64,000 nucleotides of DNA from Patescibacteria group bacterium. GTDB lineage: Bacteria > Patescibacteriota > Minisyncoccia > Phycocordibacterales > BOKC01. The first letter of the stretch is position 1; each line of letters starts with the position of its first letter. Location of the stretch: positions 1 through 64,000 of the forward strand of contig BOKC01000001.1 in assembly GCA_016860785.1 (NCBI GenBank), written 5' to 3'. The position numbers and the translations under genes are program-made. The notes beneath the pieces were generated by a model. It did no database searches, was not told where the DNA came from, and worked only from the letters and a program-made list of their open reading frames with translations. Below are positions 35,616 through 41,169 of the stretch, one piece after another.

Positions 35616-36116
35616 ATGCTGAATGGCGAAAATCTGATGGAAATCTTCGAAAGGCAGATGGGGGCTGGTTTCAGGTTTGTGGATAAGGTGGTTAAGATTG
35701 ATGGGGAAGCAGGAACTATAATCACAACATTCGACTACTCGCTTGAAGGCGAATCCAAACCCTTCCTGCACGACCATTTTTTGGGTAGACCGGCCATGCC
35801 GCTTTCTCTCATCATTGAGATGATGGCACAGACCTGCGGTTTGTTTGTCGCAAGTGTTCTCGGAAACGGCAAGTGTTTCGTTGTCCGTTATGACAAGTGT
35901 CAGTCCGGTAGCGAGCTCGTTACTCCGCCGGTTCAGCTAGTTATCACAGCGAATTTGTTGAAAAGGTGGGGGCGGGGCACTAGAAGTATTTGGAAGTTTT
36001 TCGTTATGGTGGAAACTAATCAGGCGAAGAGTGTCGGCCAGGGCGAGATCACACTTTTCGCCGGAGTTAGTTCCTCAAGATCTTCGGAAGAGCTTCAAGA
36101 CGAGATTAGAGACTGA
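35616..36116 (+). CDS. FabZ-like hotdog-fold dehydratase
   Basis: A 166-residue hotdog-fold protein. The segment FLHDHFLGRPAMPLSLIIEM with AQ following matches the FabZ/FabA active-site pattern (GHFPG-P-MPG-x4-E-AQ). H54 and E68 have the same 14-residue spacing as the catalytic His and Glu of FabZ. The usual GHFPG is DHFLG and the MPG glycine is a leucine, so the substrate pocket differs. FabZ removes water from 3-hydroxyacyl-ACP in fatty-acid synthesis. An ACP gene of the same transcriptional style lies at 58304. No other fatty-acid synthesis gene is visible. It is a stand-alone unit with strong ribosome site and terminator. Confidence 0.8.
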   Translation: MLNGENLMEIFERQMGAGFRFVDKVVKIDGEAGTIITTFDYSLEGESKPFLHDHFLGRPAMPLSLIIEMMAQTCGLFVASVLGNGKCFVVRYDKCQSGSELVTPPVQLVITANLLKRWGRGTRSIWKFFVMVETNQAKSVGQGEITLFAGVSSSRSSEELQDEIRD

Positions 36117-36123
36117 AATCCCT

Positions 36124-36157
36124 CCCCGCGCCCACAAGGCGCGGGGATTTTGATTTT
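36124..36157 (+). terminator. Rho-independent terminator of the FabZ-like gene
   Basis: CCCCGCGCC pairs perfectly with GGCGCGGGG over a five-base loop, followed by ATTTTGATTTT. Confidence 0.9.
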
Positions 36158-36229: not shown

Positions 36230-36460
36230 AAAAAGAAAAAGGCCCCACGCGCGACAGGATGACACGCGGGGGCCGGAGGGCTGGGCGGAAAGAGGGTAGA
36301 GGTTGGTTTACGATTCAGGAATCGCTCTAGAACGACTCAACCGGTTCGCTTTACCGCTACACCCAATCAATTTTTTTATTGGGTGCCGGATTAACCGGAG
36401 GCGGCTCCCATGGGGGACCGACCGCGACCTTTTTCCGCCCAAGCCAAAGGGAGAGTCTCT
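36230..36460 (-). ncRNA. Candidate structured small RNA (about 230 nt)
   Basis: On the minus strand a promoter-like pair (TTGCTT and CATAAT, spacer 16) lies near 36470-36500. A transcript starting near 36460 has no reading frame longer than a few codons. Long-range pairing of GGGCGGAAA with TTTCCGCCC closes a domain between 36283 and 36440. Inside it are a perfect hairpin CACCCAAT/ATTGGGTG, a CGGT/ACCG hairpin and a CGATTC/GAATCG hairpin. The unit ends in a perfect terminator with a T-rich tail at 36231-36274. I do not recognise tmRNA, RNase P, SRP or a tRNA. A 6S-like rod is possible but unproven. Confidence 0.6.
36231..36274 (-). terminator. Terminator of the 36.3-kb RNA unit
   Basis: GGCCCC and GGGGCC plus an inner CGCG/CGCG pair; on the minus strand it is followed by TTTTTCTTTT. 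Confidence 0.9.
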
Positions 36461-36494
36461 AATCTAATATTATGCATATTCTGTAAAAAAAAGC

Positions 36495-36533
36495 AACTCC
36501 AGACTCTTTTTTAAACTGATTTCAGAAGAGCTG
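36495..36533 (-). terminator. Terminator overlapping the stop of the 35-residue gene
   Basis: On the minus strand CCAGCTCTT pairs with AAGAGTCTGG (one bulge), followed by AGTTGC and eight T. The stem includes the stop codon region of the small gene. Confidence 0.65.
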
Positions 36534-36629
36534 GAAAATCAGCCATGCCAAGGAGTAAATAGTAGCGCCTATAGCAAATCCGGTGATCTTCCGCCTGATG
36601 ATTTCTGATGCACTGTATGGGGCGTTCAT
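36522..36629 (-). CDS. Tiny single-helix membrane protein (35 residues)
   Basis: An ATG at 36629 follows GAGGAGAG by two to five bases. The frame encodes MNAPYSASEIIRRKITGF, then a hydrophobic helix (AIGATIYSLAWLIFQLF) to a TGA at 36522. A promoter (TTGAAA/TACAAT, spacer 16) lies upstream and a terminator follows directly. The layout of an Arg/Lys-flanked single helix suggests a small membrane protein with a cytoplasmic N terminus. No family recognised; it is one of several short, strongly initiated minus-strand units here. Confidence 0.7.
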   Translation of the reverse strand: MNAPYSASEIIRRKITGFAIGATIYSLAWLIFQLF

Positions 36630-36676
36630 TTCTCTCCTCTTTTATTTAAGATGTCTTTTGAAGAACACTTGCGATA

Positions 36677-36704
36677 TTGTATTTGAAATATTAAAAATTT
36701 CAAG
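36677..36704 (-). promoter_or_regulatory. Promoter of the 35-residue gene
   Basis: Minus strand TTGAAA (36699-36704) and TACAAT (36677-36682) with a 16-base spacer. Confidence 0.6.
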
Positions 36705-40802: not shown

Positions 40803-41169
40803 AGTTTTGTCTCGTCCTATCCCCGCGCTAATCCGCTAGCTGGCGGAACGGGCATAGGACGAGACATCAGGGAAAACTTTGTTGCAGAAGTGTCGGCTCC
40901 GCCGACTCTTTGCACGACTCGCCTCCTCATCCCCGTGCTAAAAGCACGGGGATGAGGAGGCGAACTACAATAAAAAACTTGCTTAATTTTTCAAATAATT
41001 TTAAAAATCTTAAACTTCCCAATCTCTCTTTTGATCTTCCTCTAGGTTGCAGTTTTCCTTCAATAAATTCAGGATAAAAGAACTCATCTAAGCACAGGAT
41101 CAAGCCAAAACAAAAGCCCCGGAAAGGCGCTTTTGTTTTGGCAGAATTGTAATTTATTTTAAGTTTTTT
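40803..41169. other. Intergenic stretch with nested palindromes
   Basis: No gene seen. It contains GTCTCGTCCTAT paired with ATAGGACGAGAC (about 40808-40865), a GTCGGC-TCC-GCCGAC hairpin near 40893, and at 40920-40962 a perfect 20-base-pair stem with loop AAA. A 13-base-pair hairpin CCAAAACAAAAGC/GCTTTTGTTTTGG lies at 41105-41141 and probably ends the minus-strand gene at 41170. Confidence 0.7.
41105..41141 (-). terminator. Hairpin after the YeaQ-type gene
   Basis: Stem CCAAAACAAAAGC/GCTTTTGTTTTGG (13 base pairs). The T-rich 3' arm may act as the terminator tail. Confidence 0.6.

Follow-up and report, generated by a model that had tools for sequence, protein, structure and literature searches.

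Type I toxin-antitoxin loci of the TxpA/RatA type combine the gene of a short one-helix peptide, equipped with a strong ribosome-binding site, with a convergent structured stretch that covers the 3' region of this gene. Together with 6S RNA and with structured 3' untranslated regions and the small RNAs derived from them, they are the closest described counterparts of the locus analysed here. To our knowledge, few or no small RNAs have been described in candidate-phyla bacteria, and we know of none in the Paceibacter-like lineage; our literature search for described small RNAs of candidate-phyla bacteria found none. Positions 36230 to 36460 of the window (the whole 64-kb stretch of DNA analysed) had been put forward as a possible novel structured RNA. 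Our analysis agrees that this stretch is structured, non-coding, ended by a terminator and without an Rfam match, and it does not sustain the step to an RNA family, since no homologues were found and the paired bases are not conserved in the one relative compared. Most likely, the stretch represents either the 3' untranslated tail of a micro-ORF message or a small RNA peculiar to this lineage, and a new RNA family is the less probable reading.

The genome (G000) comprises 574 kb in eight contigs with a G+C content of 40%, and the structured stretch reaches 55% G+C. An identical 127-bp sequence occurs at three contig ends (L011 1-127, L013 1-127 and L033 7925-8051) and probably broke the assembly. 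The structured stretch is situated in a 718-nt spacer in which a plus-strand FabA/FabZ-like dehydratase gene (35616-36116; PF07977, E 6e-8), followed by its own plus-strand terminator (36123-36147), faces minus-strand genes. The first of these is a 35-aa micro-ORF (36522-36629, minus strand; MNAPYSASEIIRRKITGFAIGATIYSLAWLIFQLF) that is preceded by a GAGGAG ribosome-binding site, encodes one hydrophobic, membrane-helix-like stretch and has no Pfam match. Farther upstream lies a gene whose 114-aa product has a single hydrophobic stretch (37229-36885, minus strand). A perfect 12-nt inverted repeat, AGATTAGAGACT/AGTCTCTAATCT, connects the end of the fabZ-like gene (36103-36114) to the far side of the structured domain (36454-36465); its arms are 339 nt apart, and such a repeat appeared in 5 of 2000 shuffles.

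The stretch from 36230 to 36460 has no convincing reading frame, and its core is a closed structured domain of 168 nt (36279-36446) that consists of a closing helix and internal hairpins. We tentatively assign this domain to the minus strand, where it folds with a z of -4.83 (-6.79 on the plus strand); the whole stretch, read on the plus strand, has a folding z of -4.6. The closing helix is formed by arms at 36282-36295 and 36428-36441 (inverted repeat I1), which are 93% complementary and separated by 132 nt, and among 500 dinucleotide-shuffled versions of the region only one gave an equally good extended-arm score. Within it, the CACCCAAT/ATTGGGTG hairpin (36360-36385; inverted repeat I9) is predicted on both strands, and further hairpins are CCGG-ATTAA-CCGG and CGATTC-AG-GAATCG. 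The long-range closing helix, the perfect internal hairpins and the absence of a reading frame are thus present as the original prediction described them. The G-U pairs of the domain, five on each strand, prefer neither orientation, and the 5' segment is mostly unpaired in the centroid fold.

This fold is significant locally and not exceptional for the genome, because windows overlapping the stretch ranked about 26th in a small-scale, minus-strand-only survey of the spacers by z, in which some 25 windows had a z at least as low, and because long-range inverted repeats of the closing-helix class (score of at least 14) number 97 in the genome versus 48 in shuffles. The top fold of that survey (z about -15.5) occupies positions 40806-40965, where two large near-perfect hairpins, including CGCCTCCTCATCCCCGTGCT/AGCACGGGGATGAGGAGGCG, stand back to back; it has no other copy in the genome.

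The strand of the RNA is most likely the minus strand. The stretch has a single strong intrinsic terminator, GGCCCCCGCGTG...CGCGCGTGGGGCC-TTTTTCTTTTT, which runs on that strand from 36274 to 36230 (-26.4 kcal/mol, z -6.4) and presents the features of the end of a terminated transcript: a stable hairpin rich in G+C, with a run of T behind it, that is conserved at its site. At the plus-strand 3' end (36447-36515), only a long-loop hairpin followed by T6 was found, which does not stand out from shuffles (z -1.5). The strong terminator proposed earlier is therefore real, on the minus strand instead of the plus strand. In this genome, no hairpin terminator separates the micro-ORF from the domain (-2.6 kcal/mol, z +0.6).

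The promoter-like boxes of the original prediction fared less well when scored against random spacer windows, for which the two-box score has a median of 4.3 and a 90th percentile of 6.9. Those on the plus strand fall below the median, and the weak minus-strand boxes adjoining the domain just upstream (36461-36493; TTTACA-15-TAGATT or TTGCTT-16-CATAAT, scores 6.1 and 5.5) lie only at about the 75th to 90th percentile. Upstream of the micro-ORF, the minus-strand sequence TTGAAA-16-TACAAT (36676-36703) agrees at 10 of 12 positions and is the sole such match between 36000 and 36900, where 0.8 are expected by chance.

Covariance searches of the window against Rfam yielded no family at the gathering score except a tRNA, and at a relaxed threshold the stretch itself gave only sub-threshold hits at chance level, which bears out the earlier statement that no known RNA could be recognised. 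RNase P RNA and tmRNA were rejected as candidates, as their models do not match here and their genes lie elsewhere in the genome (contig C8, L034 1670-2119, and contig C4, L022 1666-2079, respectively). The ribosomal RNA genes of contig C2 follow the order 23S, 5S (L017 16221-16327), 16S (L018 5734-7222), the latter about 12 kb away, and the 23S match spans 3610 nt (L017 10032-13641), suggesting an insertion of several hundred nucleotides. SRP RNA was likewise rejected, as its model does not match here. Both SRP RNA (RF00169) and the M domain of Ffh (PF02978) were undetectable in 41 of the 41 genomes of the order sampled (this one and 40 relatives), with positive controls, so the domain is not the overlooked SRP RNA of a cell that has an SRP. 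The absence of SRP in Parcubacteria has already been published (PMC4508563). A retron- or DGR-like template was also considered; among the nine neighbouring proteins scanned there is no reverse transcriptase.

Homologues of the domain were sought at several depths. A BLAST search of 60 relatives including its own genome recovered only the domain itself, with no DNA homologue in the 59 others. A covariance model (R1), built from the single sequence and its predicted structure and run on 148 genomes of the order and on its own genome, matched nothing in the other 147 genomes and gave no second copy at home. No exact 21-mer was shared with viral contigs. The one informative relative is G001, the sole same-genus genome compared, whose contig is named Candidatus Paceibacter sp. 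BE2012_4_43_20. A neighbouring protein with a bPH_2 domain, when searched against the GTDB species genomes, matched only this same contig and a distant Taylorbacteria contig. The fabZ-like protein was not found in other families of the order, so there was no further synteny to compare.

Both genomes share the same gene order, namely the 114-aa gene, a terminator, a micro-ORF with a ribosome-binding site, the non-coding RNA region, a terminator and the convergent fabZ-like gene. The counterpart of the 114-aa protein has 113 aa and is 35% identical, and the fabZ-like gene is 41% identical. The micro-ORF of G001 (39 aa; L004 9872-9753, minus strand) has an AGGAGG site and one hydrophobic stretch; it occupies an equal syntenic place with the same architecture as the 35-aa one, and BLASTP detected no sequence similarity between the two. 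The minus-strand terminator has a counterpart in G001 (L004 9572-9540), where position, shape and partly sequence are kept, and no other part of the two spacers aligns as well locally (score 33, whereas 300 mononucleotide shuffles did not exceed 28). The non-coding region of G001 measures about 85-110 nt, contains two small hairpins and does not align with the domain. Whether relatives keep the paired bases had been named beforehand as the test of the structure; at the syntenic G001 locus neither the closing helix nor the CACCCAAT hairpin is present, and this single-relative comparison speaks against conservation. The C-rich 5' segment CUCUCCCUUU is not in the transcript region of G001 either, and the spacer there is shorter. 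Furthermore, the micro-ORF of G001 has its own strong terminator ahead of the non-coding region, so that an RNA there would need its own promoter; the boxes TTTGCA-17-TATTAT found for it score 8.1, at about the 95th percentile.

Among the explanations weighed, we tentatively favour, at somewhat less than even confidence, the one in which a short minus-strand transcript, most likely started upstream of the micro-ORF, runs as far as 36230 and has the stretch as its folded, untranslated distal portion. This reading is supported by a minus-strand terminator that G001 keeps at the corresponding place, by the best promoter match of the spacer lying upstream of the micro-ORF, by the synteny with G001, by the lack of an Rfam match and by a closing helix and folding beyond those of shuffles. 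It is favoured in this genome because the intermediate terminator is missing. Against it stand the terminator that precedes the non-coding region in G001, the better fold of the plus strand (z -6.8) and a promoter match within chance expectation. The arrangement in G001, where a terminator parts the micro-ORF from the non-coding RNA, favours instead a close variant, a small RNA in its own right that would be transcribed on the minus strand from the boxes at 36493-36461, stop at the 36230 terminator and measure about 220-230 nt. Such an RNA would act in trans, and purine-rich ribosome-binding sites are conceivable partners for base pairing with its C-rich, unpaired 5' end (CUCUCCCUUU). The better-scoring promoter of G001, the conserved terminator and the largely unpaired 5' segment of the centroid fold agree with such an RNA, but the boxes next to the domain here make a weak promoter, the C-rich segment is missing in G001, the closing helix is unconserved and the model finds no match in the order; we regard this alternative as possible and rather unlikely. 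A serious rival, to which we give a slightly smaller chance, is that there is no functional RNA and that a nest of inverted repeats and terminators, decayed or piled on one another, fills a convergent-gene spacer of a genome in which strong folding of spacers is frequent. The roughly 25 survey windows that fold as well or better, the excess of inverted repeats over shuffles (97 versus 48 at a score of at least 14) and the unconserved body of the domain point in this direction, yet a multi-part closed domain with a conserved terminator exceeds one hairpin, and the closing helix is locally rare (1 in 500).

The remaining explanations appear less probable. A genus-specific, fast-evolving structured RNA of about 230 nt on the minus strand, regulatory and tied to the one-helix microprotein, possibly in the manner of a type I toxin-antitoxin system, is in our judgement improbable. 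Still more doubtful is a plus-strand RNA (about 36236-36516) that would lie antisense to the untranslated 3' part of the micro-ORF message, after the fashion of TxpA/RatA-like type I toxin-antitoxin pairs: the plus-strand fold is the more stable one (z -6.3 to -6.8), the micro-ORF is small and contains a single hydrophobic stretch, and a long-loop hairpin precedes T6 at 36447-36515, but the plus-strand boxes score less than the median spacer window, that terminator does not surpass shuffles (z -1.5) and such a structure is absent in G001. An inserted or rearranged MITE-like inverted-repeat element, bounded by the perfect 12-bp AGATTAGAGACT/AGTCTCTAATCT, finds support in the rarity of this repeat at a distance of 339 nt (5 of 2000 shuffles) and in the shorter spacer of G001; we consider it very improbable, given that it has no second genome copy and no visible target-site duplication and that the minus-strand terminator inside it also occurs in G001. 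Least probable of all, and hardly credible, is the divergent 6S RNA that the original prediction had suggested. Its similar length and long closing helix recommend it, but RF00013 found no match in the region up to E 10, none in the genome and none above the cut-off among 99 relatives, and the closing helix encloses several hairpins, not the one central bubble of a 6S rod.

Returning to the 3' untranslated reading, transcription would start upstream of the 35-aa micro-ORF from the promoter at 36703-36676, and the 35 codons would be translated, with a folded 3' region of about 290 nt carried behind them. The fold may keep exonucleases from degrading the message or a 3' fragment processed from it, and it may separate the message from the convergent fabZ-like gene. 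That the locus is transcribed, where transcription begins, that the micro-ORF is translated and what role any of this might play are inferences. Strong folding and a terminator without conservation are common in such spacers and do not constitute evidence for a new RNA family, and a novel structured RNA family is unproven here because covariation support is absent. If transcribed, the locus would represent a concrete lineage-specific small RNA or a structured 3' end adjoining a microprotein.

In comparison with known systems, the domain resembles 6S RNA (RF00013) in its length of about 200 nt and its long-range closing helix, whereas it differs in lacking a covariance-model match and in its multi-hairpin interior, predicted on both strands. 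With TxpA/RatA-type loci it shares a one-helix micro-ORF, a strong ribosome-binding site and a structured stretch over the 3' region, whereas here the plus-strand promoter and terminator are unsupported, homology is absent and toxicity is putative. Unlike the bacterial structured 3' untranslated regions and 3'-derived small RNAs, the domain, a candidate transcript end, is without homologues and has a body unconserved within the genus; like them, it is non-coding, lies downstream of a small ORF and ends in an intrinsic terminator.
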